Positions 4,386-32,475 of a DNA stretch of 35,264 nt are shown here, piece by piece. Numbering within the stretch: position 1 is the first letter of the stretch; the number at the start of each line of letters is the position of its first letter. Below the pieces are notes generated by a model, which was not told where the DNA came from, did no database searches, and saw only the letters and a list, made by a program, of their open reading frames with translations. The position numbers were made by a program, and so were the translations under genes. The DNA comes from Anaerolineales bacterium (GTDB lineage Bacteria > Chloroflexota > Anaerolineae > 4572-78 > J111). The stretch is taken from assembly GCA_012032575.1 (NCBI GenBank), contig JAAUSP010000008.1, forward strand, positions 1 through 35,264. The letters are read 5' to 3'.

Positions 4386-6017
4386 TCAATGTAACTCAGC
4401 CGTTCCAGTTCCAAACTCGAAAGCTCCCAGGTCAAAGCCCCCACCCTGAGGACGAATGCCGCCTTGATAATCAGTATTTATACCCTGAGTGCTTAAGTCA
4501 ACTCCGGCGTCAACTGCCGGTGAGTCGAAACGGAGCGAGTAATCGCCGGCGCTAGGATTGGTGAATTTAGCCTCCAGGAGGCTCCGTGCTTTAAGATTGT
4601 TGGTGATGGCAGCAACGGTATGGCTGTCATAGACAATATGAGAGTTGCTGATACCACTTGATTGAATGATAATATTATTTTGAACCATGTTGTCGCTGCC
4701 GTAAAGGTTCTGAAAACTGATGCCGGTTTCTTTCGGATTGATAATGGTGTTGTGCCAGACATAAATGCTATTGCCGGTGTTACTGCCGGTTGTCACCTTG
4801 ATTCCATATCCAACGTACTGGCTGTTATTCTGGCCGGGGTTGATAATAAGGTTATTGTAGATTTTATTATTACCGTTGCCCTGTACATAAATACCAGGCC
4901 CACCACCATCTTGGATTAAGTTGTTATAGATATCGCAAACACTGCCCTTGTTGTTCATAATGCCGCTTTCCTGAGATGATTTAACCTGCCAGCTATCTCG
5001 ATAAATTTTGTTGTGGTGAATAGCACAGTTTTCAACGGCTGAACCAACTTGGATGCCATCCCAACCAGTATCTTCGACTATGTTATTGTAAATTTCTACC
5101 CCTTTTACTAGAGGTGGCATAACTACCTGAGAGCCATTCTCACAAGTCACAGACTCGCCCTGGCTATAAAAGGAACTGCCAACGTAAAAACCTTCGGTGA
5201 GAGTATCATGAATGTAATTGTCATGAAAAATAGAATTATATTGAGTAAACGTTGAACGATTAATAATATCGTTGAGGTCGCCTTTAACTTGACCATCGCC
5301 ATCATAGTCATATTGATTAGTTGAGCCATCAGGACAAACAGCGTCAGTTTTGGCTAAAATACCGTCGTAATTGGCTCGGGCTACTTCAATATGGTCAACT
5401 TCAAAATTACTACTCTTGTCGGTAAGACTGACCCCAGCTGAGTAATTACCATCTATTTTGAAGCCATAAATGATGTCAAAATTCCCCGTACCGGTAATTC
5501 GGATAAATTGACTGTTGCGGGCAGAAATACCAAAGTCGGAGGTTTGATTAAAAAGTACCTGCCCACCATGATTGATGAAAGTGATCGGGTTTTCGACGGT
5601 TCCTCTGAAATTCTTTAAGGTCAACTTATTTCTGGACCCAGCCATAACACAGACAGTATCACCGGGTTTGACGGTAGAATAGTTGGTACGAGCATCCGCC
5701 ACCGAAACATTTAACTCGATTGTGTGTTGACACCTACGGATAATAAGCGGCAAGTAAATAGTTATTGAACCGGAGGCAGGCGGCGGCGGGGCAGTCGCTG
5801 TGTCGGTTAAAGAAACTGGTTCTGTAGAAGTGTAGTTTGCTGAGGCCTGGATTACCCCTTCTGTTGTGGTTTGGAGGGTGGTAAGATTGGCTACATCTGT
5901 GATGTAAACGCTTGTGTTGAGCGGAATAGAAGTCGTTTCAGCGGCCCCAATGAGTCGCAATGACAAAACTGGCAGTAAAAATATTTGAAAGAGTTGGATT
6001 TTAAGTGATAATCTCAT
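4386..6017 (-). CDS. Secreted right-handed parallel beta-helix repeat protein
   Basis: The 543-residue protein starts with a signal peptide (MRLSLKIQLFQIFLLPVLSLRLIGAAE). A Thr/Ser/Pro-rich linker follows, containing GSITIYLPLIIRR at about residues 82-94. The rest is a parallel beta-helix of the PbH1/NosD/polysaccharide-lyase type, with many turns of the form IYNNxIxDxGxxGIxV. An acidic loop DYDGDGQVKGDLND (about residues 240-255) resembles a calcium site. The C-terminus (AVDAGVDLSTQGINTDYQGGIRPQGGGFDLGAFEF) is the standard closing segment of choice-of-anchor beta-helix proteins. It probably binds or cleaves polysaccharide outside the cell; I see no specific catalytic triad. AAGGA lies about 10 nt before the ATG. 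Expression is probably controlled by the leader at 6052-6335. Confidence 0.8.
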   Translation of the reverse strand: MRLSLKIQLFQIFLLPVLSLRLIGAAETTSIPLNTSVYITDVANLTTLQTTTEGVIQASANYTSTEPVSLTDTATAPPPPASGSITIYLPLIIRRCQHTIELNVSVADARTNYSTVKPGDTVCVMAGSRNKLTLKNFRGTVENPITFINHGGQVLFNQTSDFGISARNSQFIRITGTGNFDIIYGFKIDGNYSAGVSLTDKSSNFEVDHIEVARANYDGILAKTDAVCPDGSTNQYDYDGDGQVKGDLNDIINRSTFTQYNSIFHDNYIHDTLTEGFYVGSSFYSQGESVTCENGSQVVMPPLVKGVEIYNNIVEDTGWDGIQVGSAVENCAIHHNKIYRDSWQVKSSQESGIMNNKGSVCDIYNNLIQDGGGPGIYVQGNGNNKIYNNLIINPGQNNSQYVGYGIKVTTGSNTGNSIYVWHNTIINPKETGISFQNLYGSDNMVQNNIIIQSSGISNSHIVYDSHTVAAITNNLKARSLLEAKFTNPSAGDYSLRFDSPAVDAGVDLSTQGINTDYQGGIRPQGGGFDLGAFEFGTGTAELH

Positions 6018-6051
6018 GATCTGATCCTTACACGGTTAGAATTTTTAAAAT

Positions 6052-6139
6052 AAAAAAAGCCGACTTTTCACCCGGAGTGAAAATTCGGCCTCGCTATTTG
6101 CATCAACACGTTTTGTTGTGAGGGGTATTTAGCTTTGCC
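6052..6139 (-). ncRNA. Leader element 2: candidate structured RNA ending in an intrinsic terminator
   Basis: Read on the - strand, the element starts GGCAAAGCTAAATACCCC, has a hairpin CAACA/TGTTG (6104-6118) and then CAAATAGCGAGGCC. It ends in a strong hairpin (GCCGA-TTTTCAC / GTGAAAA-TCGGC, 6059-6089) followed by a seven-T run (6052-6058). Flanking GCTA and TAGC can close the core hairpin. The layout of aptamer-like core plus terminator, 35 nt before the start codon of the beta-helix gene, is that of a transcription-terminating riboswitch. It resembles leader element 1 in the core but not in the terminator sequence. I do not recognise a known riboswitch class. Confidence 0.55.
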
Positions 6140-6242
6140 TTTTTTATGTTATATCTAGTTATATGGAGCAGGATGGCGTAAGATGGAAAAGAGTATTCTT
6201 TAATTAACCGTGGGCTGACCTCCATTTTGTCTAAAATTATTC

Positions 6243-6335
6243 AAAAAAAAGGCCGGTTTACCCATAAAAGATAGTAAACCGGGCCTCACTATTTACTCCC
6301 ACACTCTGGTGGGGATGGAGTAGTTAGTTTTACCC
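6243..6335 (-). ncRNA. Leader element 1: candidate structured RNA ending in an intrinsic terminator
   Basis: On the - strand the core reads GGGTAAAACTAACTACTCC, then a hairpin CCCAC/GTGGG (plus-strand 6298-6313), then AGTAAATAGTGAGGCC. It runs straight into a terminator with an 11-bp stem (GGCCGGTTTAC, 6251-6261, pairing with 6274-6285, one bulged base) and an eight-T run (6243-6250). The core blocks AAArCTAAnTACyCC and AAATAGyGAGGCC are shared with element 2, while stems and loops differ. That is the pattern expected of two copies of one RNA under structural selection. A promoter lies just upstream. Confidence 0.55.
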
Positions 6336-6357
6336 TAAAGAGTATTTGATTTATTGT

Positions 6358-6386
6358 ACTATATCATAAAATTGATATAAGAACAA
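6358..6386 (-). promoter_or_regulatory. Sigma70-type promoter for the leader and beta-helix gene
   Basis: On the - strand TTGTTC (6381-6386) and TATAGT (6358-6363) are separated by exactly 17 bp. Transcription would start near 6351, about 15 nt before the first leader element, giving a leader of about 330 nt. A palindrome ATATCA-6-TGATAT (6361-6378) overlaps the spacer and could be an operator. Confidence 0.5.
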
Positions 6387-6402
6387 GGTCTAAAAATAGC
6401 TT

Positions 6403-6432
6403 TTGAGTACTAATTGAGTCAACTGGTATAAC
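6403..6432 (+). promoter_or_regulatory. Sigma70-type promoter for the GHL10-like gene
   Basis: TTGAGT (6403-6408), an 18-bp spacer and TATAAC (6427-6432) place the start of transcription near 6439. This is downstream of the earliest possible start codon (TTG 6437) and argues for a start at 6470 or 6485. It is divergent from the - strand promoter at 6358-6386. Confidence 0.4.
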
Positions 6433-6469
6433 TGCTTTGAGACCGGTTGCCGGTAGGAGAATTCGGCCC

Positions 6470-8218
6470 TTGTTTTCTTTAAGAATGCATCTGCTTGTAG
6501 GTTTGAACCTTTTGGGATTGGTCTTCGGCTGTATAGCTTGCCAGGTGGACACTCGACCCACCGTTGGAGGTACGCTGCCGGTCGGCTTTCAAGCCAGTTC
6601 ATCGGCTGTGGCCGCTCAGCCAGAAATGCGGGCGGTCTGGATTCAAAGCTGGTCAATCGCCAGCCGGGAAAGAGCCGAGGCTACACTGAAACGGGCTGAA
6701 GCGGGCCATTTTAATGCTGTTTTTGTAAATGTCTTTGTTTATGGCCAGGCTTTGTATGAGAGTCACTTACTCAAAAAATATGATCGGGTAGAGCCTGGCT
6801 TCGATCCACTCGCTTATTTGATCGAAGCCGGGCAGCAACACCAGATTGCTGTACATGCTTGGTTGGTGGCTGGCCCGGTGGGTGGTCTCAATGGCCCAAT
6901 TCTTTCCCAGCATCCTGATTGGGCGATGATGAGCTTGGATGGAGAAAGGCTAAATTGGCTTAACTACAACCGGCCTGACGTTAGGAATTTTATAGCCGAG
7001 GTTGCCGAGGAAATTGTTGCAAATTACCAAGTAGCCGGGATTCATTTTGACTATACTCGTTATCCCCATCCCGGCTGGAAGTGGGGTTTTGACTCTTACA
7101 GCACCGTCCTTTTTGCCCAGGAGTACAAGTTTGACCCAAATCTACTGCGTTACGCCGACTTACCAGCCTATGGCAGTTTTAGAGGCAATCCCCTGACCAA
7201 TGCCACTACTGCTCAAGTGTTGGCCGTGTTTGACGATGGTCAACCGGCTGTGTTACTTAATCATTATGGGGATGGTGAAGTTATTCTCTTCAACTGGAAG
7301 GCAGATGAACGAACTATTGCCGCTGGCAGTGAGATAATGCGCCGCAGTTTAAATCGGTTTCTTGACCCAACCGGAACTGTTTACTTGTTGCGTTCTGAAA
7401 CCAATGCTGAACGGTACGGCTATACCGATTTTGAAAAAGTAGCTACCTGGTTGAAAGAATTAGGGTGGCCGCCTACATCAGTCTTCGAGACCGAAATAAA
7501 CGGCTTGCCCGAAAACGGAGTGTTAGTGCTACCCAGTGTTTATCTGATCGAAGCTCAGACAAGCACCGCTCTGGCCGATTTTGTTCGAAGTGGTGGCGAC
7601 GTTATCTTGATTGATGGCCCCACCCCCTCAATCAAAGACGAGAGGCTCCAGGCTATTATTGGAGTGCGAGCACAGGGCCAATATATCAATCGAACCGGCC
7701 TGTTGATCCCGGTAGGGCAACATCCTTTGATTCCCGTGACCGAGCACCTGTTAGAATTTGATGATTATGTGGAGATGGGAGTGAAATGGAAAAGCTTTCG
7801 CAAACAGGGCATTAATCGTTTACTTGAGGAAGTTCACCACCGGGTTAAGCAAAAGTCGCCCAGCACGCTAGTGTCTATTACCGTTACTGGGAGTCAAGAA
7901 ATTCTGGCCGAAAAACATTTTTTGGAGTGGTCGGCCTGGCTGGAAGGGGGCTATGTTGATTTAATTATCCCCCGCCTGTACGTCAAACAGGGCGAGTCGC
8001 TTGCCCCAGCTTTGGCTCTATGGCAACCAGTGATTGATCGGTCGGGGCGAGTAATGATTGGGTTGAACGTATTTGTGAGTGAAGATAGCCAAGAGGCAAA
8101 AACACTAGGTCAACTACAGACCGAACTTGACCTAGCTCGTGCTGCCGGTTCGCGAGGAGTTATCTTTTTTAACTTGAATGGTATTACCGATGAGTTTTTA
8201 ACTAATTTAAATTGGTAA
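6470..8218 (+). CDS. GHL10-like glycoside hydrolase (DUF187 family) with inserted GATase-like domain, exported
   Basis: The start is taken as TTG 6470, which follows TAGGAGA by 9 nt; ATG 6485 is the alternative. The N-terminus has a hydrophobic segment ending LVFGCIACQ, so it is probably a lipoprotein, although the lipobox is not canonical. A TIM-barrel typical of GHL10 follows: RAVWIQSW, FNAVFVNVF, IAVHAWLVAGPV, AGIHFDYTRYPHPG. The barrel is split by about 200 residues (VLAVFDDGQPAVLL to GQYINRTGLLIPVG) that resemble a ThuA/GATase1 or DUF4350 fold. It resumes with LIIPRLYVKQ and VMIGLNVFVS. Members of the family are presumed to act on cell-wall or exopolysaccharide glycans; the substrate is unknown. 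Length is 582 residues. Confidence 0.75.
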   Translation: MFSLRMHLLVGLNLLGLVFGCIACQVDTRPTVGGTLPVGFQASSSAVAAQPEMRAVWIQSWSIASRERAEATLKRAEAGHFNAVFVNVFVYGQALYESHLLKKYDRVEPGFDPLAYLIEAGQQHQIAVHAWLVAGPVGGLNGPILSQHPDWAMMSLDGERLNWLNYNRPDVRNFIAEVAEEIVANYQVAGIHFDYTRYPHPGWKWGFDSYSTVLFAQEYKFDPNLLRYADLPAYGSFRGNPLTNATTAQVLAVFDDGQPAVLLNHYGDGEVILFNWKADERTIAAGSEIMRRSLNRFLDPTGTVYLLRSETNAERYGYTDFEKVATWLKELGWPPTSVFETEINGLPENGVLVLPSVYLIEAQTSTALADFVRSGGDVILIDGPTPSIKDERLQAIIGVRAQGQYINRTGLLIPVGQHPLIPVTEHLLEFDDYVEMGVKWKSFRKQGINRLLEEVHHRVKQKSPSTLVSITVTGSQEILAEKHFLEWSAWLEGGYVDLIIPRLYVKQGESLAPALALWQPVIDRSGRVMIGLNVFVSEDSQEAKTLGQLQTELDLARAAGSRGVIFFNLNGITDEFLTNLNW

Positions 8219-8844
8219 ACCCCCGGCTATGCCGGGGAGACCCAGCAGTTTGACAGATCCGGGAATATCGAGGAGCCTCCTGACTATGAACCGCTCAAAG
8301 CTCATAGACCAAGAGGCAGGGAGTGATCCCCGAACAAAGTTTAAGTCATGGCAAATGGGAATGCAAGTATCATATCGTTTGGATTCCAAAGTATCGGCGC
8401 AAAAAGCTGTTTGGCGAATTGCGTAAAGAGTTAGGCCAGGTGTTGCGCGAACTGGCTCGGCAGAAAGAGAGTGAGATCATCGAAGGGCATCTGCTGCCCG
8501 ACCATGTGCATATGTTGATCTCAATTCCGCCGAAATACTCGGTTGCGCAAGTAGTCGGCTACATCAAAGGCAAAAGTGCGATTTGGATCGCACGGACGTA
8601 TGGGGGTCGCCAACGGAATTTCACGGGTGAACATTTCTGGGCACGTGGCTACTATGTTTCGACCATAGGCCGGGATGAACAAGTGATCCGAGCGTACATT
8701 CAACAACAGGAAAAGGAAGACCAACGCCTGGAACAACTGAATATGTTTGACCAGGGACTGCCGCCTTTAGGCGGCTCATAAAGTTTAACCAAAAACCGCT
8801 TTGAGCGGTTCACATCATAAGTCACCGGCTTTGCCGGTGGTCAA
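8219..8844 (+). mobile_element. IS200-type insertion sequence (IS200/IS605 family), complete
   Basis: A single Y1 transposase gene is flanked by the short hairpins typical of these elements. The left end has CCCCGGC-TAT-GCCGGGG (8221-8237) and the right end CACCGGC-TTT-GCCGGTG (8823-8839), followed at once by TCAA (8841-8844), a known right-end cleavage tetranucleotide in this family. There is no target duplication, as expected. The two ends share the CCGGC/GCCGG stem core. The exact left boundary is uncertain by a few bases. The element sits directly after the stop codon of the preceding gene without damaging it. Confidence 0.75.
8323..8781 (+). CDS. tnpA: IS200-family Y1 (HUH) transposase TnpA
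   Basis: A 152-residue protein with all the marks of IS200 TnpA: WECKYHIVWIPKYRRK at the N-terminus, the HUH-type metal motif PDHVHMLI (His61, His63) and the catalytic tyrosine in RAYIQQQEKED (Tyr125). It cuts and joins single-stranded DNA at the subterminal hairpins. Start GTG 8323 is the only suitable start and follows GGCAGGGA. No accessory TnpB/IscB gene is present, so this is an IS200 rather than an IS605 layout. The reading frame is intact and it may be active. Confidence 0.9.
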   Translation: MIPEQSLSHGKWECKYHIVWIPKYRRKKLFGELRKELGQVLRELARQKESEIIEGHLLPDHVHMLISIPPKYSVAQVVGYIKGKSAIWIARTYGGRQRNFTGEHFWARGYYVSTIGRDEQVIRAYIQQQEKEDQRLEQLNMFDQGLPPLGGS

Positions 8845-9099
8845 CTTAACTCAGCTTTGAGCCGTTTTAGCTCTTGTTTACGTAAGGTAATCGGCACAAT
8901 CTTGATATTTCTTGGGTGCTGAGGTTATTTTACCACTGCTCAGTCACTCAGGAAGTAGCCCCACTATATGTAGTATGCTTTACCGAAATTACCGAAGAAC
9001 CAAAAGTTTTGGTTTAATTCTGATTTCAGTAAAGCTTTAGGTTTTGTCAGACAACTTAAGAATACCAACGATCTTACAAATTCAGGGAGCAACGTAGGT

Positions 9100-10383
9100 A
9101 TGAACCCACTCGCAATTGCTACCAAAGGCAAAGGTTTAAAGAACGCCCTGCGGCGAGGGCAGGTTATCACCCAGCGGTATGGAATGACCTCGCACAAAAT
9201 GGATCAGACTCTAGAGCGGTTTGTCTGTCTGTTGCAAACGTATCAGGCCAGTGCTACCTTTCCTATAACTGCCGTCGCCCTGCAACGCAACAGCACCGCC
9301 ATTCGCCAGTTCGTCGAGCGCGGGCTAGAGTTTGCCATTCACGGCTTTACCCACATTGACCATTCGCAATTGTCGGCAGACCAACAGGCGGCTTACCTTA
9401 ACCGGGCTATGGCAGCATTTGGCCAGAGTCAAACGCCATTTAACGGCTTTCGCTGCCCCTACCTGCGTTGGAACGAAGGTACGCTAATCGCTCTCCGGCA
9501 GCACGGGTTGCTGTATGATAGTAGCCAGGGGTTGGCCTGGGACGCGCTTGACGGCCTGGAAACGCCGGCCTACCGGCACGTTCTTAATTTCTATGGGGCC
9601 CAGCCGGCCCAGCGGTATCCGGCTTTACCTCGTTTTGAGCAGGGGTTGCTCCGTATTCCTTACTGCTTGCCCGACGACGAGGGCTTGATTGACCGGCTAC
9701 AGCTCCCCCCCGCCGCTCGCACCCAAGTCTGGTTAAAAATGTTGCAGCAAATTTATGAGCTGGGCGAGTTATTCACCGTCGGCCTGCACCCGGAACGGTT
9801 TGACCTTTTGGCCGAACCCCTGGCCGCCACCCTGGCCCAAGCCCGTACCCTCGCGCCTGCTGTTTGGATTGCTCGCCTGGATGAAATTGCCGCCTGGTGG
9901 TGTAATCGAACCGAAACTAATGTTACCCTGACGGCTTTACCCGGCCAAGAAGAAGTGCAAGTGGCTGTAGCCGGCCCTGTCGGGTTGACCATTCTGGCCC
10001 GCCGCCTGATAGTTAACGGCCCGACCGCCCCCTGGTCCGGCGCTTATGAACGGGTGCTGGTCGAGAATTTTACCCTGACAACCTCGCTGCGTCCGGTGAT
10101 TGGCCTGTCGCCCCGCAGCGCCCCTTCACTGCACGAGTTTTTACGCCAGCAGGGTTATGTGATCGAACTTAATGAGGACTCGCGGCCTTATCCACTTTAT
10201 TTGGATCGGCTCGATTTTGCCCCGGAAGATGAACGTCCGCTGCTGGCTCAAATCGAAAATGGTGATTGGCCGCTACTGCGGTTAGGGCGCTGGCCCGATG
10301 GGGCGCGTGCTGCTTTGAACGTGACCGGCGATATTGACGCCTTGACATTATGGGATTATGGGCTGCGTTTCCTGGGCAGTTAA
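9100..10383 (+). CDS. NodB-like polysaccharide deacetylase (CE4) with unusual motif order
   Basis: The 427-residue protein carries the CE4 metal-site motif 2 as HGFTH (His81, His85), motif 3 as FRCPYLRW, and the closing LHPER (His230). These are preceded by ATFPITAVALQRN, equivalent to the ATFF strand of NodB domains. The first NodB motif, TFDDG-like, should lie just before ATF but is absent. A VTGDIDALTLWDYG segment with two Asp (411, 413) appears instead at the extreme C-terminus. It probably removes acetyl or a related group from a surface polymer. No signal peptide is visible, so it may act in the cytoplasm. It is the first gene of the polymer cluster. Confidence 0.7.
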   Translation: MNPLAIATKGKGLKNALRRGQVITQRYGMTSHKMDQTLERFVCLLQTYQASATFPITAVALQRNSTAIRQFVERGLEFAIHGFTHIDHSQLSADQQAAYLNRAMAAFGQSQTPFNGFRCPYLRWNEGTLIALRQHGLLYDSSQGLAWDALDGLETPAYRHVLNFYGAQPAQRYPALPRFEQGLLRIPYCLPDDEGLIDRLQLPPAARTQVWLKMLQQIYELGELFTVGLHPERFDLLAEPLAATLAQARTLAPAVWIARLDEIAAWWCNRTETNVTLTALPGQEEVQVAVAGPVGLTILARRLIVNGPTAPWSGAYERVLVENFTLTTSLRPVIGLSPRSAPSLHEFLRQQGYVIELNEDSRPYPLYLDRLDFAPEDERPLLAQIENGDWPLLRLGRWPDGARAALNVTGDIDALTLWDYGLRFLGS

Positions 10384-10447
10384 AGCTTGGTCGTATATTG
10401 GCTACCTCCCCTTTTGCTAAAGTGGTTGCTGATTGTGTGGAAAATTT

Positions 10448-10467
10448 GTTAGTATTCTAACTTTTTT
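10448..10467 (+). terminator. Weak intrinsic terminator after the deacetylase gene
   Basis: GTTAG-TATT-CTAAC (10448-10461) is followed by six T. The 5-bp stem is short, so termination may be partial. Confidence 0.35.
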
Positions 10468-10522
10468 CTAATTGTTTTCTTACAGATTTAACATGCTTTA
10501 TGGTTAGAATCAGGTTAAATCA

Positions 10523-10653
10523 GGCCTAAGAGCAATACTTTTCAAATAAGGAGGAGTGAGCATCCTCAGATGCGAACGGGGCCGCTCCGCATCTGAGGAT
10601 GCTCCGCTCCTCAAAGACAAAAAGCGTTATTTGAAAAGTATTGGGCCTAAGAG
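10523..10653. mobile_element. MITE-like palindromic element with 10-bp target-site duplication
   Basis: The direct repeat GGCCTAAGAG at 10523-10532 and 10644-10653 brackets a 111-bp segment (10533-10643) with 17-bp perfect terminal inverted repeats: CAATACTTTTCAAATAA at 10533-10549 and its complement at 10627-10643. Inside is a second, near-perfect inverted repeat (10551-10574 with 10588-10612, one mismatch/indel site) around a GC-rich loop, so transcripts would fold into a long hairpin. There is no coding capacity. The duplication size excludes the IS200 element nearby as the mobiliser; a DDE transposase elsewhere is needed. It occupies the intergenic region 10384-10701, which otherwise holds only AT-rich leader. 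Confidence 0.8.
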
Positions 10654-10701
10654 ATCAAACAAATTAAAGTATTAATAAGGAAATGATAAGGTTTTTAGAC
10701 C

Positions 10702-11715
10702 ATGTGGGTGGTACAGGAGCTCGAGGAAAATGTGTGGCGCGAGTTTGTGAACAAACAGCCGCAGGGAAATATTTTTCACACTCCGGAAATGTTTCGAGTG
10801 TTTGACCAGACAAAAGGTCACAAGTCAACTTTGTGGGCTGTGGTTGACAATGACAATTGCCCATTGGCCCTGCTTCTGCCAGTGCATGTGACGTTGATGA
10901 ATGGCCTGCTGCGTCAATTGACCACGCGGGCAATTGCTTACGGCAGCATTTTGAGCGTACCCGGCACGGCAGGACAGACGGCCCTGGCTTTGTTATTACA
11001 AACTTACAAACGTGAGGCTAAAGGTACTGCTCTATTTACTGAATTGCGTAACCTATCAGATTTAGGCCAGCCCCAAACCTTGCTTAACGATAACGGTTTT
11101 GCCTATGAAGGTCATCTCAATTATCTGATCAACCTCAACCGTCCTGCCGAGGAATTGCTGCAAAGTATCGGGCAGCGGACCCGCAAAAAAATTCGTAAAG
11201 GGTTGCGTGATGGTTTTGTTCAAATGAGTGAGGCTACTACCCTGGCTGAGCTAGAACACTGGTATGAGATTTTGCAGAAAACCTACAGCAATGCCCAGGT
11301 GCCACTGGCCGACCGCTCGCTATTTATGGCCGCTTTCAATGAGTTGTACCCCAAAGGCATGGCCAAGTTTTTGTTGGCCCAGGTAAATGGTGTAACCGCT
11401 GCTTGTTCGATTGAACTGCCTTATAAAAATGTAATTTATGGCTGGTATGGCGGTTCAGATCGTGCCTATAGTGATTATCTGCCCAACGAAATGCTGATCT
11501 GGCACATTTTGGAATGGGGTGCGAATAACGGTTATGGTATTTATGATTTTGGCGGCGCGGGCAAACCGGATGAGGAATATGGTGTGCGTGACTTCAAAGC
11601 CAAATTTGGCGGTGATTTGGTCAATTTTGGGCGCAATGTTTATGTGCATAATCCAAGCCTGCTGAAGTTGAGCAAGCGGGGCTATGAAGTATATCGCCGG
11701 TTTTTTATAAGGTAA
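10702..11715 (+). CDS. FemAB/BioF2-like GNAT-fold aminoacyl- or acyltransferase
   Basis: The 337-residue protein has the double-GNAT layout of the FemAB/lipid II glycyltransferase family. The first half ends in INLNRPAEELLQSIGQRTRKKIRKGLRDG, the diagnostic Arg/Lys-rich 'xxRxxIRxG' helix. The second half has FLLAQVNGVTAACSIELPYKNVIYGWYGGSDRAY and ends in GIYDFGGAGKP and VRDFKAKFGGDLV. Known members add amino acids from aminoacyl-tRNA to lipid II or act in exopolysaccharide clusters; the donor here is unknown. It is cytoplasmic or membrane-associated. It begins the long operon downstream of the MITE, and the next gene starts 19 bp after its stop. Confidence 0.75.
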   Translation: MWVVQELEENVWREFVNKQPQGNIFHTPEMFRVFDQTKGHKSTLWAVVDNDNCPLALLLPVHVTLMNGLLRQLTTRAIAYGSILSVPGTAGQTALALLLQTYKREAKGTALFTELRNLSDLGQPQTLLNDNGFAYEGHLNYLINLNRPAEELLQSIGQRTRKKIRKGLRDGFVQMSEATTLAELEHWYEILQKTYSNAQVPLADRSLFMAAFNELYPKGMAKFLLAQVNGVTAACSIELPYKNVIYGWYGGSDRAYSDYLPNEMLIWHILEWGANNGYGIYDFGGAGKPDEEYGVRDFKAKFGGDLVNFGRNVYVHNPSLLKLSKRGYEVYRRFFIR

Positions 11716-11734
11716 AGAGGAGTCAGTAAATCTC

Positions 11735-12940
11735 ATGAGCACCTTTCAGGGCCAAACAAAGCCCAACCGACACTGCATGGTTGTCCATGCTTACTATCCT
11801 CTGGGTGAAACCCGGGTTGAGCGGCAAGCCCTGGCCTTAATTAAGCATGGCTATGAAGTGGATGTAATCTGCTTGTGGGCCAGAAAAGGCCCGGAATTTG
11901 AAACCAGAGACGGCGTTAATATCTATCGTCTGCCGGTTAAGCGCGACAAAAAAGGTGGGGCAAAAGCACAGTTCTTCGAATATCTAACCTTCTTTCTTTT
12001 GGCGTTACTCAAATTGGCCCGCCTGCATCGGCAGCGACATTATGGAGTAGTGCAGGTGCATAACCTGCCTGACTTTTTGGTGTTTGCCGGTTTGCTGCCC
12101 AAACTGATGGGGGCCAAACTGATCCTGGATATTCATGATCTGATGCCCGAATTTTATGCAGCTCGGTTTAACAACCCCAACTGGTCAAGCTGGCCCATGC
12201 GGTTGATTCGCTGGCAAGAATGGCTTTCGTGCCGTTTTGCGGATCGGGTGATTACAGTCACCAAATCATGGCGTGAGAGTTTGGTCCAGCGAGGGGTTCC
12301 GGCGGAGAAGGTTCACGTGGTCATGAATGTGGCTGATGACCAAATTTTCTGTCGCCTCACCGAGGCAACTCCAACCCAAAGTAATGGCTCCCTGCGACTG
12401 ATCTATCACGGCAATCTGACCCAGCGGTACGGCATTGATTTGCTTATTCGGGCTGTTGACCTGGCCCGCCAACAAGCTCCCGGTCTACGTTTGATGATTC
12501 ATGGCGGTGGCGATTATCGGGAAGCATTGATGAATTTGACCGATGAGTTGAAACTGAATGATTATATCCAATTTACCACTACCTTTGTGCCAAGCACGGA
12601 ACTGCCAAATCTGATCCGTCAGGCCAATGTAGGGGTGGTGCCTTATCGCCGCGATGTTTTCACCGATGGTATTTTGCCCACCAAGCTTATGGAATATACA
12701 GCTCTGGGCTTACCCACTATTGTAGCCCGGACGCCGGCAGTTGAGGCGTATTTTGATGAGAGCATGGTTGAGTATTTTACAGCCGAAGATGTGGAAGGAT
12801 TAGCCACCAGTATTCTGAAGCTTTATCACCACCCCGCTCGGCGGGCTGAGCTGGCTCAAAAGGCTGATACTTTCAATCAGAATTATAATTGGGCCAAACT
12901 CAGTAACGAATATGTTGAGCTTATAGATTCGTTAGGATGA
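11735..12940 (+). CDS. GT4-family glycosyltransferase
   Basis: A 401-residue GT-B enzyme. The N-terminal domain starts HCMVVHAYYPLGETRVERQALALIKHGYEVDVICLW, with the acceptor loop VVQVHNLPDFL and LILDIHDLMPEF. The C-terminal domain has RLIYHGNLTQRYGIDLLIRAV and the donor-site helix LPTKLMEYTALGLPTIVARTPAVEAYF, in which the EX7E motif is represented by KLMEYTALGLPTI. It likely extends the polymer repeat unit on a lipid carrier. GAGGAG lies about 15 nt before the ATG. It lies between two FemAB-like genes in the same operon. Confidence 0.85.
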   Translation: MSTFQGQTKPNRHCMVVHAYYPLGETRVERQALALIKHGYEVDVICLWARKGPEFETRDGVNIYRLPVKRDKKGGAKAQFFEYLTFFLLALLKLARLHRQRHYGVVQVHNLPDFLVFAGLLPKLMGAKLILDIHDLMPEFYAARFNNPNWSSWPMRLIRWQEWLSCRFADRVITVTKSWRESLVQRGVPAEKVHVVMNVADDQIFCRLTEATPTQSNGSLRLIYHGNLTQRYGIDLLIRAVDLARQQAPGLRLMIHGGGDYREALMNLTDELKLNDYIQFTTTFVPSTELPNLIRQANVGVVPYRRDVFTDGILPTKLMEYTALGLPTIVARTPAVEAYFDESMVEYFTAEDVEGLATSILKLYHHPARRAELAQKADTFNQNYNWAKLSNEYVELIDSLG

Positions 12941-12977
12941 TAAAGGAGTTGGATAGTCCATTTAGGAGAAAATTGTT

Positions 12978-14134
12978 ATGGGGAAAATATCCAAGTTAGC
13001 ATACAACCTGTGGTTTCAGGCGCAATTAGGAGCACCACCTTTTGTCCAAAATTTGATTATATCCCCGCTGGTTGACATTAAAGAAATATTTCGAATTATA
13101 AAAAACCCGTTTTTCGACGTCTATCGAATACAAGACCAAAACCAGGCTGGTTCTTTTACGGCAACCTACTATACAACTAAAGAAATAAGAGCCTCACGTC
13201 AATTTAGAGGGATTTTTTTTTCAGAAAATTTAACCATAACCCCTATAGGGCGAGTGCCAATCTGGAATATTCACAAGGAAATTACTTCTATAGATAGTGA
13301 TATCATTATGGTTGAGACGGATAAAAAGCTGGTTAATAGATTACCTTGTCAAAAAGCTATTGTTATTCCATTGCAGGTATTATTACAGATAGATCTTCGA
13401 GGCTCATGGGATGATGTGAAAAAACGCTTCCATAAAACGGTGTCTCATACTGAACTTCGTTTAACCCAAAAGCATGGTTATACCTATCAGCTGAGTTATG
13501 ACCTGCAAGAATTTGAGTGTTTTTATCATCAAATGTACCTGCCAACGATGGAAGATAGACATGGCGATTTGAATTTGCCATTGACAAAAGAAGATTTGGC
13601 TGCTTATCTAAAGCGAGGTTTCTTGTTTCTAATTAAAAAAGGAGAGCAGGCTGTGGCCGGGGGGTGTGTTATCCCCAACAGAAAACACTTACGCTTCTTG
13701 TTGGAGGCCTGTTAAACGCTGATGAAGAGTTGAGAAGGCAAGGAGCAATGGGGGCAATGCGAACTCTGTTGATTAAATGGGCCAATGAGGCAGGTTTTGA
13801 GACATTTAATTTCGGTGATTCAGGGCCTTTTTTGGCAGGAGGTATATTTCAATATAAACGCAAATGGGGCGCTAAAGTGGTTGCCAGGAATCGAAGAGTT
13901 TGGTTGAAAGTTCAGCGTAACAATCCAGCAGTTTGTCAGTTATTAAAGGATCACCCGATAATCACAGTTGATAAAACGGGTGATTTGCATGGTTTGATTA
14001 TTGTGAATAACTCAAGAGAAATTGATGCCAGTGATGAAGTGGAAATGCAAAGAAAATATGCCACCCCTGGCCTAAACTCTTTACTTATCCGCTCTATGGC
14101 AGATTTAGTTGTTGAGCCGATAAGAGCCGCTTAG
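12978..14134 (+). CDS. BioF2/FemAB-like GNAT transferase, paralog A (one-base frameshift)
   Basis: Two frames join into one protein of about 385 residues if a seventh G is restored in the run 13659-13664. The junction then reads VAGGVCYPQQK, matching VAGGVCYPEQK of the next gene. The N-terminal 130 residues (transmembrane-like IISPLVDIKEIF, then a beta-rich region) are followed by a GNAT/BioF2 domain: LRGSWDDVKKRF, a basic helix, YHQMYLPTMEDRHG, FQYKRKWGAKVV. The C-terminus KYATPGLNSLLIRSMADL is shared with its paralog. By eye the coding sequence is more AT-rich than its neighbours, hinting at different history or relaxed selection. The start ATG 12978 has AGGAG 9 nt upstream. Confidence 0.7.
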
Positions 14135-14149
14135 GGAAGTGTCGGAATA

Positions 14150-15319
14150 GTGGAAAAGTTAATTGAATGGCGACATATGCTCTGGCTCAAGGTGCAGTTG
14201 GCCCTGCCCCCGCCAATACAACCCTTGTTGCATGAGAGCAAAGAAATTATCTTAACTTTGAGTGAACCGTATCTGACGGTTTATCAATGGCAAGGCCAGA
14301 GTCGCGGTGGCCCTCTTCGGGTTAATTACGCCGGGTTTGAGTATGCCCGTCCTTATCTTAAAAGTATGCTGTTTATTTCAGAACCCGAGGAAACAGAAGT
14401 GGGCCGGGTTCCACTGTGGCAGCCAAGTCGGTTTAGCCATTTGCCAGACAGCGATTTGAGTTACGTGGTAGCCGGTAAACGGCTGGTCGGTCAATTGCCA
14501 CGCCAGAATAGCCTGGTGTTACCATTTTGGACTCGTACTGCGCTTGATATTCGGGGTGAGTGGGCCGAAGTGGAGCAGCGTTTCCGTGAAGATGCCCGGC
14601 GGAATGAGGTGCGAAAAGCCAAAAAGTTTGGCTATAGCTATGTCATCAGCTATGATCGAGCCGATTTTGAGAATTTTTATTACACTATGTATCTCCCCAT
14701 GATGCAACGTCGCCATGCAGTGGTTGACCTCTTGCTAACCTTTGAGGAGGCATACGAATATTTTCAGCGTGGGATGTTACTGCGGGTCAAACGAGATGGG
14801 CGCTATGTGGCTGGAGGTGTTTGTTATCCAGAACAAAAGGTGCTTTATTTTATTATGATTGGTGTCTTGGATGGGGATGAACAATTGATGCGTGAAGGCG
14901 CAGTGGCCGCCATCAACTATTCTCGTATCCAATGGGCTCATGAACAGGGTTATGAGGCCGTTGATTTTTGGGGGAGTCGGCCTTATATGACCGGTTTATT
15001 TCTGTATAAACGTAAATGGGGGGTGACAGTCAGTGTTCCACCCAACCGTTATGAACGGATTTGGCTTCAAGTTCGACGAGATACACCAGCAGTACGTCAA
15101 TTTTTCAAAGATAACCCTTGCCTGGTACTAGATCAACAGCAAGATTTGTGGGGCTTAATCATTACCGATGCTCCTGACCAATTGACATCCGATGCTGAAG
15201 CTGGTTGGTGTAAACAATATGCTACCCCTGGTTTGAAGGGATTGCTTATTCGTTCTGTACCCGATCTGCTGGAAAATCGTCTTTACATAAGGAGAGAATC
15301 GTGCAAGGAGTCCAGCTAA
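14150..15319 (+). CDS. BioF2/FemAB-like GNAT transferase, paralog B
   Basis: The 389-residue protein parallels the preceding gene along its whole length: the start WRHMLWLKVQLALPPPIQPLL, VGRVPLWQ, the domain entry DIRGEWAEVEQRFRED, FYYTMYLPMMQRRHA, VDFWGSRPYMTGLFLYKRKWGVTV and the shared ending KQYATPGLKGLLIRSVPDL. These features place it in the FemAB-related GNAT group often found in exopolysaccharide loci. It presumably transfers an amino acid or acyl group, with a specificity different from its paralog. It starts at GTG 14150, 15 bp after the previous stop. Its last 19 bp overlap the next gene, indicating a tight operon. Confidence 0.75.
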   Translation: MEKLIEWRHMLWLKVQLALPPPIQPLLHESKEIILTLSEPYLTVYQWQGQSRGGPLRVNYAGFEYARPYLKSMLFISEPEETEVGRVPLWQPSRFSHLPDSDLSYVVAGKRLVGQLPRQNSLVLPFWTRTALDIRGEWAEVEQRFREDARRNEVRKAKKFGYSYVISYDRADFENFYYTMYLPMMQRRHAVVDLLLTFEEAYEYFQRGMLLRVKRDGRYVAGGVCYPEQKVLYFIMIGVLDGDEQLMREGAVAAINYSRIQWAHEQGYEAVDFWGSRPYMTGLFLYKRKWGVTVSVPPNRYERIWLQVRRDTPAVRQFFKDNPCLVLDQQQDLWGLIITDAPDQLTSDAEAGWCKQYATPGLKGLLIRSVPDLLENRLYIRRESCKESS

Positions 15320-16387
15320 CTGCTGACCGGCGTGACGAATGGAATCATTTTGTGGCTCAGGATAAGTTTTTTGCGCATCTCCAATCCTGGGGAATGGGGC
15401 GAATTCAAAGCCTTGTTAGGGTGGCAGGTGGTCCGCCTGGGAGTGGAGCATGAAGGGCGGCTGGTGGCCGGAGCACAATTGCTTATCAAAACTATGCCTT
15501 TAGGTCTGGCCAGCTTTGTATATGTGCCACGCGGCCCTGTGGTTAACTGGTCAAACCACTCTGTGACTATATGCTTGTTGGAGGCTATCCACGAGGTAGC
15601 CCGACAGCAGCGCGCTATTTTTCTACGCCTTGAACCACCTCTGGAAGATAGCCCGACCGCACATGCCTGGTTACAGCGTTACAATTTTCAGCCCTACACC
15701 AATACTAATCAGCCCCGCTGTACTTTGGTTGTAGATTTAACGCCCGGCCCCGAAGAGATGTTTAATCGTTTATCAAAAAGTACCCGCAAGAAAGTGCGCA
15801 CCACCCAAAATAAAGGGGTGCAAATCCGCACCGGCACAGAAAACGATCTCGACACCTTTCTACAGATTATGGAATCTACCGGCAAACGGGCTGATTTTCC
15901 TATCCGCTCCCGTGATTACTATACCCATGAATTTAAATTGTTCTCGCAGGCTGGTCGTGCCCGATTAGCCCTTGCTAGTTATGAAGGGGTAGATGTGGCG
16001 GTAGATATGACTTTTGTTTTCGGGCGTCAGGCTGCTTCATTTCATGGCGGCTTTGTGAGCGAATTTCCTCACTTGAAAATCAACCATGCCCTGGTTTGGG
16101 ATACAATTTGCTGGGCCAGTCAACAGGGTTGTGATAGTTTTGACTTGTGGGGAATCCCCGACGAGATTGGCGAACTGGTGGCAACCGGCCAGCCCCTCCC
16201 CGAAGATCGTCACGATGGCCTGTGGGGTGTCTATCACTTCAAGCGTACCTTTAGCGAGCAAATTGTTTATTATGTGGGCGCTTATGATTATGTTTATAAC
16301 CCATCGGTCTATCGCGCCGCTACGTTTGCTGCTGCCCGCTTTGGATCACTGGACCAGGTAGCCAAATTGGCTGATCGTCTTTTTTAG
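15301..16387 (+). CDS. FemAB family transferase (peptidoglycan-bridge type), one-base frameshift near the 5' end
   Basis: The true start is GTG 15301, preceded by AAGGAGAG. The first 30 codons (VQGVQLTADRRDEWNHFVAQ...FFAHLQSW) are in a different frame from the rest. Removing one G from the GGGG run at 15389-15392 gives FAHLQSWEWGEFKALLGW, the hallmark N-terminus of FemAB proteins. The corrected length is 361 residues. Further on are FVYVPRGPVVNW, the basic helix RLSKSTRKKVRTTQNKGV, and the closing GCDSFDLWGIPDE and GLWGVYHFKRTFSEQIVYYVGAYD. It likely uses aminoacyl-tRNA to add a residue to a lipid-linked acceptor. Of the transferases here it is the one closest to classical FemX/FemA. Confidence 0.8.
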
Positions 16388-16401
16388 GAGTCTGGCAGTC
16401 A

Positions 16402-17151
16402 GTGACCATCCTGTATGTGATTGAACAGCATGACCAGTTGTTACATTTGTGGCGGGAGCAACAGGCCGGTGGGTTGCGCGTTGTTCATTTGGATTTTCAC
16501 TGTGACCTGCGTGGCCTGCTTATCAATCGCCGTACCCAACAAGCCTATCTAATCAACGATCAGCCCCCAGAATTAGACGAAGGGAACTTTTTAACCCACG
16601 CTATTATCGAAGGCCGGATAGAGTGTTTGCATTGGATTCATCGCTTGCCGGGAGGGCGTCAATATGATGTAGGCACGGTAAAATATGAAACTGACTTGAC
16701 TGGGCGCTGGTTGAGCTGGCTACTGGCCCTTAAAGGTAGGCCGGCCAGACCGATTCATTATGAGGTGATGGAACTCTCGGCCTGGCCCGGTTTGACTGAG
16801 GGAGAGTTTTTGGATATTGATTGGGATTTTTTCGCCAGCCTGGAATATCCACTAAACTCGATTCAGGCTCAGGTGGAGTCATTTCTGGGTCTGGAATGGG
16901 CGGCAGCGCCCCAACAGATTTCCGTCTGCTATTCACCCGATTTTTCCCACCCCTCCCGATCTGACTTTGAAACTTTTATTCAACGTCTGGCTGAAAAATT
17001 TGGAGCAACACTGGTGCGCCTTCCACCGCCCTCCCCAGTAGTTGAAACACCTGCCGGCTATAAAAAATATATCCCACGCACGTTTTACCAGAGACTGAGG
17101 CGCGGTTATTATCAAACCAATTTGTGGTTGCGACAAAAAGGAATTTATTAG
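16402..17151 (+). CDS. Arginase-fold (UPF0489-like) metalloprotein
   Basis: The 249-residue protein carries two signature segments of the ureohydrolase fold: VHLDFHCDLRG near residue 30 (DxHxD pattern) and FLDIDWDFF near residue 138 (DxDxD pattern). Together these are the usual ligands of a binuclear manganese site. The overall architecture fits the UPF0489/C5orf22-like branch, which also includes peptide arginases that turn arginine into ornithine. The substrate here is unknown. GTG 16402 follows AGGAG by 11 nt, and the stop overlaps the next start. Lying among FemAB-type genes, it may act on an amino-acid substituent of the polymer; this is inference. Confidence 0.55.
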   Translation: MTILYVIEQHDQLLHLWREQQAGGLRVVHLDFHCDLRGLLINRRTQQAYLINDQPPELDEGNFLTHAIIEGRIECLHWIHRLPGGRQYDVGTVKYETDLTGRWLSWLLALKGRPARPIHYEVMELSAWPGLTEGEFLDIDWDFFASLEYPLNSIQAQVESFLGLEWAAAPQQISVCYSPDFSHPSRSDFETFIQRLAEKFGATLVRLPPPSPVVETPAGYKKYIPRTFYQRLRRGYYQTNLWLRQKGIY

Positions 17152-17816
17152 TGCGCTTATTAAAATCGTTATTTTATCAATTGGTTGACGCCCTCCAAAC
17201 CTTTCGAATCAAAGGTTGGCGTGCCGGGTTGACTCAACTGGCTAAAACTGGTCGGCGAGTGATTTATAACCAGGATGAGTTTATTGTTCTGGCCAAAGCT
17301 CTTTTTCCGGCTGAACCACCCCCTGATCCGTTGCCAGGATTGACAGTGCGCCGTTTGACTACTGAGGCGGATGTGAATAAACTGGAACCTTTGGCCGGTG
17401 CTACCGATATGGTCCGGTTTCAGCGTATGTTCGCACTGGGCGCAGTTGTATTTGCTGCCTTTCTGGAGGGTCAGGTAATCGGTTGGGGGTGGTTGGCTGA
17501 CAAAATTGATCCCCAAACTAATCGGGTACAGGCTCCGTTGAATCCTGGTGATGCCTGTCTCTATGACCTTTTTGTGGCCCCAGACTTTCGAGATCGAGGT
17601 ATTGCTCAAAGGCTAGTTGCCAGCCGGCTACAATTTCTAAGGGATCACGGCTACCAGCGTTCGGTTATAACTTGTTCAAAAGATAATCTGGCTGCTTTAA
17701 AAGTGGCGCAACGAGTTGGTTATGTTTCTGTCGGAAAGAGCCACCATACCCGATTGCTATTTTGGGACCGTTATGAATATGAAACCTTCGAATTAGAGGA
17801 ACCTTATCGTGTATAG
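17151..17816 (+). CDS. GNAT-family N-acetyltransferase
   Basis: Start GTG 17151 overlaps the previous stop by one base and has AAGGA 8 nt upstream; a longer reading from 17124 lacks a ribosome site. The 221-residue protein has an N-terminal basic/amphipathic region and then a GNAT domain. Strand 4 reads CLYDLFVAPDFRDRGIAQRLVASRL, with the acetyl-CoA pyrophosphate loop R-D-R-G-I-A, and motif B reads KDNLAALKVAQRVGYVSVG. It likely acylates a small or polymer-linked amine. The last 8 bp overlap the CapK-like gene, so the two are co-translated. Confidence 0.75.
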   Translation: MRLLKSLFYQLVDALQTFRIKGWRAGLTQLAKTGRRVIYNQDEFIVLAKALFPAEPPPDPLPGLTVRRLTTEADVNKLEPLAGATDMVRFQRMFALGAVVFAAFLEGQVIGWGWLADKIDPQTNRVQAPLNPGDACLYDLFVAPDFRDRGIAQRLVASRLQFLRDHGYQRSVITCSKDNLAALKVAQRVGYVSVGKSHHTRLLFWDRYEYETFELEEPYRV

Positions 17817-19152
17817 GAACTTTTACCAGTTAATTCGGTTTGCCGTAAACTATCGGCGTGAACTGCGCCTTATGGATCACCTCCGTGAGTTTGAACGCAA
17901 TCAATGGTTGAACACAGAAGAACTTCGCCAAGTGTCCTGGCAAAAACTTAAGCAACTACTTGAACATGCTTATGTTAATGTGCCTTTTTATCAACAACGC
18001 TTCCGGGAAGTTGGCCTGACACCGGCTGACATTCGGACTGAGGCGGATTTTCTTCATCTGCCACTTTTGACTAAAGAGGATATTAATAAACATACCGACT
18101 TGCTTTTGGCTAGAAATTATCATAAAAATCAGTTGAAACGTGATGTGACCAGTGGTTCGACAGGAGTGCCCCTTGTCTTGTTTCGTGAGCGTGATCACGA
18201 TATAGTAGATGTGGCTGCCTTCATTCGTTATAGACATTGGTTTGGGTGTGAACCAGGCGACAAAATTGCCTGGATTTGGGGCAGGCGTGGTGATATTTCG
18301 GGATTGACTTTGACGCAGCGATTAAAGCGTGAACGTTGGTTGGATGGTTATCGGCCAACCCCTGAAAAACTCCAGCAATATGCTGAAATGTTACTCAAGT
18401 GGAAACCGGCGATAATCGCTGGCTATGGTAATGTTATCTATGTCTTCGCTGAGTATCTGCGTAGTCAACAAATTACCGGTATTCAACCAAAAGTTATTGA
18501 AACAACGGGAATGACCATTTGGCCTCATGAACGTGAAATAATTGCTCAGGTGTTCCAGTGTCCTGTTTCAGACCGGTATGGCAGCCACGAAGCCGGCGCA
18601 ATGATTGCTGGTGAATGTTCGGAACATAGTAAACACATATTTAATGATTTCTGTTACGTAGAAGTTCTGGCCGATGAACAACCAGCCAAGCCAGGGCAAA
18701 TGGGTGAGGTCATTATCACACCTCTTTACACTTTTGGAATGCCGCTAATTCGTTATCGGATGGCCGATATAGCGGTTCTGGCCGACAAACCTTGTCCTTG
18801 TGGACGTGGTTTGCCGGTATTAGACAACCTGGTTGGTCGCACAACCAGTATTTTTACCTTACCTAGTGGCAAATTACTATATGGAGGTATTTTTCGACAT
18901 ATAGTTTTAAAAGATACTCTGGCTATTCGCCAATTTAGGGTACATCAATCTGACAAAAATCAGATTGAGATTTTCTTGCAGCCAGGGAAAGAATTTGATG
19001 AAACTATTGTGAGCCAGGTAAAGCAACGATGTTTGGCTATTTTGGAAGGTGAACCGGTCAACCTAACCATCACTGTTACTGACGATATTTCTACCACAGC
19101 CGCCGGTAAATTTCTAGTAACCACCTCAGATGTGCCTGTTTCGTTTAATTAG
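17809..19152 (+). CDS. CapK/PaaK-like adenylate-forming enzyme
   Basis: The 447-residue protein belongs to the phenylacetate-CoA ligase-like group often called CapK in capsule loci. Visible landmarks are the P-loop TSGSTGVPLVLFRERD (about residue 118), the DRYGSHEAGAMIAGEC core motif, the zinc-type cysteines CPCGRGLPVLDNLVGR, and a C-terminal lobe ending TTAAGKFLVTTS. Such enzymes activate a carboxylate as an adenylate and may load it onto CoA or another carrier. In this operon it could supply the acyl group used by the adjacent GNAT/FemAB-type transferases. Start GTG 17809 follows GAGGA by about 10 nt. Confidence 0.8.
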   Translation: MYRNFYQLIRFAVNYRRELRLMDHLREFERNQWLNTEELRQVSWQKLKQLLEHAYVNVPFYQQRFREVGLTPADIRTEADFLHLPLLTKEDINKHTDLLLARNYHKNQLKRDVTSGSTGVPLVLFRERDHDIVDVAAFIRYRHWFGCEPGDKIAWIWGRRGDISGLTLTQRLKRERWLDGYRPTPEKLQQYAEMLLKWKPAIIAGYGNVIYVFAEYLRSQQITGIQPKVIETTGMTIWPHEREIIAQVFQCPVSDRYGSHEAGAMIAGECSEHSKHIFNDFCYVEVLADEQPAKPGQMGEVIITPLYTFGMPLIRYRMADIAVLADKPCPCGRGLPVLDNLVGRTTSIFTLPSGKLLYGGIFRHIVLKDTLAIRQFRVHQSDKNQIEIFLQPGKEFDETIVSQVKQRCLAILEGEPVNLTITVTDDISTTAAGKFLVTTSDVPVSFN

Positions 19153-19237
19153 GTGGGGGCTCAAACAAAATTCAAACTTTCTTGTGGTATTATCAGGGTA
19201 TATTTTGGTGGTAGTTGTAGAGAAGTGTGGAGGTAAG

Positions 19238-23332: not shown

Positions 23333-23373
23333 GAGCTAGTCGTTAAGATAACCAATCAGGTTTTGGTGTCACA

Positions 23374-23405
23374 AATCGAGGGGTGACAACTTTCGCCCCT
23401 CGATT
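23374..23405 (+). terminator. Intrinsic terminator after the TSP3 protein gene
   Basis: AATCGAGGGG (23374-23383) and CCCCTCGATT (23396-23405) form a perfect 10-bp stem with a 12-nt loop, followed by the T-rich GACTCTTTTATCTTT. It would separate transcription of this gene from the downstream algD-like gene. Confidence 0.65.
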
Positions 23406-23527
23406 GACTCTTTTATCTTTACTACACAGGTTGTCTCTCGGACAAGAGCAACAGCCTAACTCATTTTGTAGAAAGGAGATGTATACCCGTAGTTTTGTCG
23501 CTCTGACTACAGGATACAATGTATTAT

Positions 23528-29363: not shown

Positions 29364-29405
29364 TTTCCCACATACTAAATGTATATTTTTTCTGGAAAGC
29401 GGCCT

Positions 29406-30593: not shown

Positions 30594-30666
30594 TCAATAG
30601 ATTTTGAGGAAGCTGCATTCACCGAATTGAAACAAGCCCTCTTGGGTTAAAGAAGAAGGTGTTTTG

Positions 30667-31944: not shown

Positions 31945-31953
31945 ACAAGAGGC

Positions 31954-32001
31954 TTTGAAGGTTGCCAACCTTCAAACCTTCAACTTTCCAACTTTCCAAC
32001 T
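31954..32001 (+). repeat. Inverted repeat and 8-bp tandem repeats before smpB
   Basis: TTTGAAGGTT-GCC-AACCTTCAAA (31954-31976) is a perfect 10-bp stem with no T run after it. It is followed by degenerate 8-bp repeats (CAACCTTC, AAACCTTC, AACTTTCC, AACTTTCC) that run to the ATG of smpB, leaving no visible Shine-Dalgarno sequence. Confidence 0.65.
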
Positions 32002-32475
32002 ATGAGTGACCAACCTGTCAAAGTTATTGCCAGTAATCGAAAAGCCCGCCATGATTATCACATTGAAGATACGTTTGAAGCGGGTATAGTTCTGACCGGC
32101 AGCGAGATCAAATCAATCCGGGCCAGACAAGTCAACTTGAGCGATGGCTATGCTGCCATTCGCAACGGTGAGGTATGGCTGCTGAATGCTCACATTGCCC
32201 CCTACCATCAGGCCAGCTACGAAAACCACGAACCGCGCCGTGACCGCAAATTGTTGATGCATCGTCGTGAAATTAACCGGCTGACCGGCAAATTGCAGGA
32301 AAAAGGGCTAACCCTGATCCCGCTGCAAATCTATCTCAAAAACAGCCGGGCTAAAGTTGAATTGGGGTTGGCTCGAGGTAAAAAATTACACGATAAACGC
32401 GAATCCGTCCGGGAACGAGACGACCAGCGCCAGATGGCCCGTGCCATGGGACGACGACTAAAAGGAGTAGATTGA
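32002..32475 (+). CDS. smpB: SsrA (tmRNA)-binding protein SmpB
   Basis: A 157-residue protein with every SmpB landmark: NRKARHDYHIEDTFEAGIVLTGSEIKSIR, LSDGYAAIRNGEVWLLNAHIAPY, HEPRRDRKLLMHRREI and the basic C-terminal tail KKLHDKRESVRERD. With tmRNA it rescues stalled ribosomes and tags unfinished proteins for proteolysis. The stop overlaps the start of the next gene by one base (TGATG). No tmRNA gene is visible in the window. There is no obvious Shine-Dalgarno site, because a short repeat array abuts the start. Confidence 0.95.
   Translation: MSDQPVKVIASNRKARHDYHIEDTFEAGIVLTGSEIKSIRARQVNLSDGYAAIRNGEVWLLNAHIAPYHQASYENHEPRRDRKLLMHRREINRLTGKLQEKGLTLIPLQIYLKNSRAKVELGLARGKKLHDKRESVRERDDQRQMARAMGRRLKGVD

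Follow-up and report, generated by a model that had tools for sequence, protein, structure and literature searches.

Why should a gene for a secreted beta-helix protein be preceded by two related RNA elements, each leading into a strong transcription terminator, and can the pair be understood as a switch? The question is raised by a leader on the minus strand of a 35,264-nucleotide stretch of DNA from an Anaerolineales bacterium, referred to here as the window. We believe that this region is probably a tandem ON-type transcription-antitermination leader in which a split stem serves as the antiterminator. At the level of sequence, and with two copies from one leader as its basis, the analysis supports a well-formed tandem attenuator that would be new to Rfam.

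The first-pass annotation had described the region as a pair of riboswitch-like aptamers within a tandem attenuation leader. The attenuation leader, which is absent from Rfam, survives our analysis. The aptamer part is less secure: the supposed single-stranded blocks form a stem, the proposed pseudoknot differs between T1 and T2, the two elements, and searches that covered the right phylum with one exact pattern gave no other members.

Two related elements ahead of a beta-helix gene

The leader runs from a promoter sequence (6386-6358) through the elements T1 and T2 to a ribosome-binding site (6029-6025) and the beta-helix gene (6017-4386). The promoter proposed earlier, TTGTTC-17 nt-TATAGT, is present and was recovered by a motif scan. 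It carries an extended -10 element, TGATATAGT, at 6366-6358, and matches the consensus at three of six positions in the -35 box and at five of six in the -10 box; the string TGNTATART occurs at two places in the window, counting either strand. We infer that transcription starts at this promoter, and from its sequence the start would be expected near 6351. Our own scan of the leader, which accepted matches of at least 3/6 (-35) and at least 5/6 (-10) with a spacing of 15-19, yielded six candidates. Four are clustered at 6392-6353, one lies between the elements at 6264-6236, and the sixth (6025-5998) extends into the beta-helix gene and is the sole candidate past the T2 terminator. The stricter standard promoter scan listed two 9/12 sites upstream of T1 (6422-6393 and 6392-6363), where 1.3 would be expected by chance on both strands, and TTGTTC-17-TATAGT is absent from that list because its -35 box reaches only 3/6. 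At the other end of the leader, the Shine-Dalgarno sequence AAGGA (6029-6025), also named earlier, can be read directly 7 nt ahead of the ATG at 6017.

Between these signals, and on the minus strand, lie the two tandem elements that the annotation had placed there: the promoter-proximal T1 (6282-6334) and the gene-proximal T2 (6087-6139). Their 53-nt cores align without gaps and share 34 of 53 positions. The next-best 53-mer for either core elsewhere in the window has 28 identities, and when the leader was dinucleotide-shuffled 300 times its best self-match averaged 27.4 (sd 1.2), with a maximum of 33. A covariance model built from T1 and T2, called R1, scores the two copies at 70.6 and 69.3 bits and, with a next score of 13.7 bits, reveals no further copy in the window. 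The likeness is concentrated in the blocks that pair; the apical hairpins and the terminator arms have diverged, with the terminators still strong.

The gene that would be regulated (4386-6017, minus strand) encodes a right-handed beta-helix protein of 543 aa that matches PF13229 (31.6 bits) and a choice-of-anchor Q domain (37.3 bits), and its N terminus is signal-like by our own reading of the sequence. A search returned 430 homologues, and the top non-self match, 56% identical, is named from an Anaerolineales bacterium; identities among the closer homologues are 45-62%. Among the best 120 of the 430, the names of P0032, P0039 and P0043 point to Chloroflexota/Chloroflexi and Anaerolineae, and those of the weaker homologues P0071, P0088 and P0116 to other groups. 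By these names the window would be placed in Chloroflexota, probably in Anaerolineae. No solved structure for the family was found by sequence search. The gene upstream of the leader (6437-8218) lies on the strand opposite to the beta-helix gene.

Several other features of the surroundings can be recorded. An IS200-type insertion at 8210-8850 contains a Y1 transposase gene (8323-8781; PF01797, 137 bits) and is flanked by the small palindromes CCCCGGCTATGCCGGGG and ACCGGCTTTGCCGGT. A polysaccharide-related run on the plus strand (9100-24844) includes genes for a polysaccharide deacetylase, two FemAB-like proteins, a glycosyltransferase, an acyl-CoA-ligase-like protein and a UDP-sugar dehydrogenase, together with a 1400-aa protein that has TSP3 repeats and a weak transglutaminase-like match. 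Two adjacent S41 C-terminal processing peptidases followed by smpB are found at 29379-32475 (plus strand). Taken together, the beta-helix product and its polysaccharide-related neighbours suggest a surface-related signal and indicate no particular one; no evidence emerged for c-di-GMP or for metals as the ligand.

A split stem that overlaps two terminators

The conserved blocks of the two elements had been taken to be single-stranded, but they pair with each other. The 5' block GGY-AAA-RCUA joins the 3' block UAGY-GAG-GCC in one split stem, P1, that consists of a 3-bp helix (P1a), a 3x3 loop of AAA opposite GAG, and a 4-bp helix (P1b). In T1, P1a is GGU/GCC, with a fourth pair, G-C, possible, and P1b is ACUA/UAGU; above it follow an AC/AA loop, a UAC/GUA helix and a hairpin cap. 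In T2, P1a is GGC/GCC, P1b is GCUA/UAGC, and above an AA/AA loop come an imperfect UAC/GCA helix and an apical hairpin that is weakly predicted. The third helix, UAC/GYA, is therefore complete in T1 and contains an A·C mismatch in T2. The minimum-energy fold that RNAfold gives for each core has the same P1a and P1b, with pair probabilities of 0.88-0.99. Between the copies, pair 7-47 is G-C in one and A-U in the other, which amounts to one two-sided compensatory change, and pair 3-51 goes from C-G to U·G.

How unusual is such a shared stem? When a split helix is defined as at least 3 bp, a symmetric loop of 0-4 nt and at least 4 bp, with a span of at least 40 nt, the real pair of cores has one in common, yet just 0.1% of 2000 column shuffles do. 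The consensus-fold energy is marginal (z -1.9, with 5% of column shuffles equally good), and the folding energies of the single cores are not unusual (z -1.6 and -1.0). The pseudoknot CCUC/GAGG that had been proposed is available as 4 bp in T2; as read from the alignment, T1 offers only CUC/GAG in a register shifted by three columns. We have dropped it as a feature common to both elements, the registers being different.

Each element runs into its own strong intrinsic terminator, as had been claimed. Our scan for terminators on both strands, defined by a tail with 6 T in 7 and a hairpin below -9 kcal/mol, found eight sites in the window. The two strongest are those of T1 (6249-6287, minus strand, -18.5 kcal/mol, with a T run to 6243) and T2 (6056-6092, minus strand, -18.7 kcal/mol, again followed by a T run), and the next reaches -14.1 kcal/mol. 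A simpler terminator scanner reported no sites, both hairpins probably being excluded by its stem limits and its loop range of 3-8. Both terminators begin at alignment column 48, the G of the conserved GAGGCC, so that their 5' arms start from GAG and take the GCC of P1a. P1a and the terminator are mutually exclusive because GAGGCC, at the 3' side of the split stem, serves in addition as the terminator's 5' base.

The terminator state is favoured over the P1 state by 2.6-3.7 kcal/mol in T1 and by 4.9-5.2 kcal/mol in T2, depending on the flank that is folded. When the growing transcript is folded, the mean probability of four P1 pairs falls from 0.98 in the bare cores to 0.37 (T1) and 0.33 (T2) with the terminator 3' arm made. 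This predicted hand-over is non-monotonic in T1, where the probability is 0.60 at 77 nt, 0.98 at 80 and 0.37 at 86. In T2, P1b is compatible with the terminator, and the real competition is therefore over P1a alone. If P1 is enforced, a strong upper hairpin stays in place, separated from the U run by 4 nt in T1 and by 3 nt in T2. This residual hairpin should terminate poorly, although partial termination may occur.

An attenuation leader is supported because two strong terminators lie between promoter and start codon, because the same split stem occurs twice, and because P1a cannot form together with the terminator. We envisage that RNA polymerase would start near 6351 and make first T1 and later T2, each of which would initially fold into its split stem, with P1a holding the GCC that is needed at the terminator base. 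Without binding, the 3' arm of the terminator would displace P1a and transcription would stop. If instead an effector, either a small molecule or a protein that binds RNA, held the split stem, the terminator would lose its base, a gap of 3-4 nt would separate the upper hairpin from the U run, and transcription would continue. We infer both the existence of such an effector and its ON action. The beta-helix gene would be expressed only if both gates, arranged in series, were open.

Several observations count against this explanation. There are two copies, one leader and no homologue that we could find. The single-core energies are ordinary, the consensus energy is marginal and the T1 hand-over is not monotonic. 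P1b of T2 coexists with the terminator, a residual hairpin persists under P1, and the third helix of T2 has its A·C mismatch. The -35 box is also poor, an open reading frame (6656-6390) ends upstream, and a GTG frame in T1 follows GGGAG.

These small frames deserve attention, given that ribosome-mediated leader-peptide attenuation could be considered as the mechanism for both units. No ATG-initiated frame precedes the T1 terminator. GTG frames start within T1 at 6302 and 6289, and the second (6289-6200) has GGGAG six nt ahead of it; the position of T2 that matches 6289 lacks a start codon. A further frame, opened by ATG and 40 codons long (6225-6103, minus strand), begins in the stretch between the two elements and runs into T2, where it stops; no Shine-Dalgarno sequence is visible ahead of it. 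Because T1 and T2 share no frame, leader-peptide attenuation does not explain both, and we have rejected it in that role. Further upstream, the frame at 6656-6390 (minus strand, 88 aa, TTG start) overlaps the gene at 6437-8218 in antisense for most of its length and stops a short way before the promoter; Pfam gives no match for it at E values up to 1. We take it as probably a chance frame; if it were real, T1 could act in part as its terminator.

Relatives and rival readings

The annotation had looked to a covariance model, an Rfam comparison and covarying Chloroflexota homologues for support. The model was built and run, and the comparison upholds the view that the family is unrecognised: with Rfam release 15 (4227 models), the whole window has no match at the gathering cut-off. 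At E values up to 10, the region 5990-6480 gives seven matches, all well below the cut-off and none of them a riboswitch. Homologues with covariation were not found, Chloroflexota being covered by one exact-pattern scan and one plasmid.

The exact-pattern scan covered the genome_contigs collection (84,980 species) with a pattern matched by both copies and gave five matches, L001-L005, where a rough estimate by hand would expect about 15 by chance. All were judged spurious: L001-L003 lie wholly within frames of 267-991 codons, L004 lies partly in a frame (35 of 55 nt), and L005 is in an 85-codon frame at an apparent gene start. With R1, L003-L005 reach 14.1-15.3 bits, and the places of L001 and L002 are absent from its matches; a T run follows downstream at L001 only. 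Three pattern scans of viral contigs gave 0, 2 and 0 matches, both of them wholly in frames (281 and 301 codons). In the same contigs, 97 stretches fit a pattern for beta-helix relatives and none was confirmed. Searches with blastn against plasmids and phages returned four and three records, with at most 12% query coverage and E values of 0.02 or worse.

R1 itself found nothing in four genomes or records, one of them a Thermomicrobium plasmid. Three phyla other than Chloroflexota, reached through the chance loci of the exact-pattern scan, were also sampled with R1, which gave matches in 3 of 398 genomes (E<=0.1), 10 of 386 (E<=0.1) and 0 of 395 (E<=0.01). Eleven of these 13 matches were inspected, and the other two score 23.1 and 21.7 bits. 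Seven (28-29 bits) are inside frames of 721-722 codons, with the translation at L014 read as glycogen phosphorylase-like, and three (L021, L011 and L013) are opposite frames of 355, 163 and 480 codons. The last, L012 (1501-1553, 20.6 bits), is AT-rich (19% GC) and outside long frames, with a T run 40 nt beyond it; we took it as chance. Where there is no known positive, an empty result from such sampling carries no weight. That no relatives turned up indicates no more than that the exact blocks are uncommon, and it says nothing against a family.

Within the antitermination reading, the choice between a small molecule and a protein as the agent that holds the stem is close to even. We can tentatively entertain an RNA-binding antiterminator protein, as in the LicT/BglG RAT system and the pan RNAs, which are presumed to be protein-bound. 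The elements would suit such a protein, being small, simple and imperfect hairpins with symmetric purine loops that are arranged in tandem and overlap a terminator. However, the 27 window ORFs that were scanned, out of 60 listed, gave no match to the BglG/LicT type or to any other known antiterminator protein family, although a gene of this sort might be located elsewhere, and Rfam shows no match to pan or other leaders.

It is likewise possible, if somewhat doubtful, that T1 and T2 are aptamers of a new small-molecule riboswitch class. The conserved loops and stem sequence, the equal core length, the lack of an Rfam match and a tandem ON architecture like that of known tandem riboswitches are all consistent with this proposal, but the core has a simple build, the stem accounts for much of the conservation, and the two copies come from one leader. 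A bolder version would make T1 and T2 the founding pair of a new riboswitch class confined to Anaerolineae. Its small aptamer of 53 nt would double as the antiterminator, and two copies in series would let a secreted surface protein respond to a signalling molecule with a steep ON switch. We regard this as unlikely.

Outside the antitermination reading, the leader might hold two sibling small RNAs, each with its own terminator, that stand before the gene by chance. The units are compact (roughly 90-105 nt) and end in a strong terminator, and a promoter-like sequence lies directly upstream of T1. However, at thresholds of 3/6 and 5/6 T2 has no promoter candidate immediately ahead of it, the closest one (6264-6236) being about 100 nt upstream. 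The sole candidate past the T2 terminator reaches into the gene, which therefore seems to need read-through, and the overlap of stem and terminator falls at an equal place in T1 and T2. We consider this account improbable. Least probable of all is a repeated or mobile terminator-bearing sequence without a regulatory role, now a decaying tandem duplication: T1 and T2 are clearly related and an IS200-type element is 2 kb away, but their likeness is concentrated in the pairing blocks, the terminators stay strong despite diverged arms and apical hairpins, and the window holds no third copy (13.7 bits against 69.3 and 70.6).

Significance and comparison with known systems

If further members exist, the tandem antitermination leader would represent a new class of cis-regulatory RNA in Chloroflexota. 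In this regard, the main text of two large discovery papers contains no word beginning with 'Chlorofle' (PMC11109978, PMC8632094). Such a class would also provide a direct handle on the signal behind the control of a family of secreted beta-helix proteins, whose gene here has polysaccharide-related neighbours. Furthermore, the anatomy of the leader predicts specific base changes that are easily tested.

We found no description of this element in the open-licence literature, whose figures are not searchable. Among the systems that it resembles are the RAT hairpins of the BglG/LicT family, in which a short, imperfect antiterminator hairpin overlaps the 5' arm of a terminator and gene expression is ON when the hairpin is bound. 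T1 and T2 are also imperfect antiterminator stems that overlap a terminator 5' arm, but their sequence and loop layout do not appear to follow the RAT consensus.

The pan RNAs are portrayed in one account as simple stems with conserved unpaired purines that occur mostly in tandem upstream of operons, Chloroflexi included (PMC2864571). T1 and T2 are likewise tandem simple stems with purine loops. However, pan stems have two bulged A residues and precede pantothenate genes, whereas the elements described here have symmetric AAA/GAG loops and precede a beta-helix gene. Searching with cmscan gave no match to the pan motif (RF01749) in the window or the leader.

A further parallel is offered by contiguous T-box and guanidine riboswitches, which are reported to act on terminators by means of terminator/antiterminator pairs, in a source that also calls the riboswitch enrichment of Chloroflexota notable but less significant (PMC12452182). 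The present leader differs in that it matches no Rfam riboswitch family, even at E values up to 10. What it shares with these systems, as that source presents them, is a terminator and an antiterminator that exclude one another and elements that are placed in series (PMC12452182).
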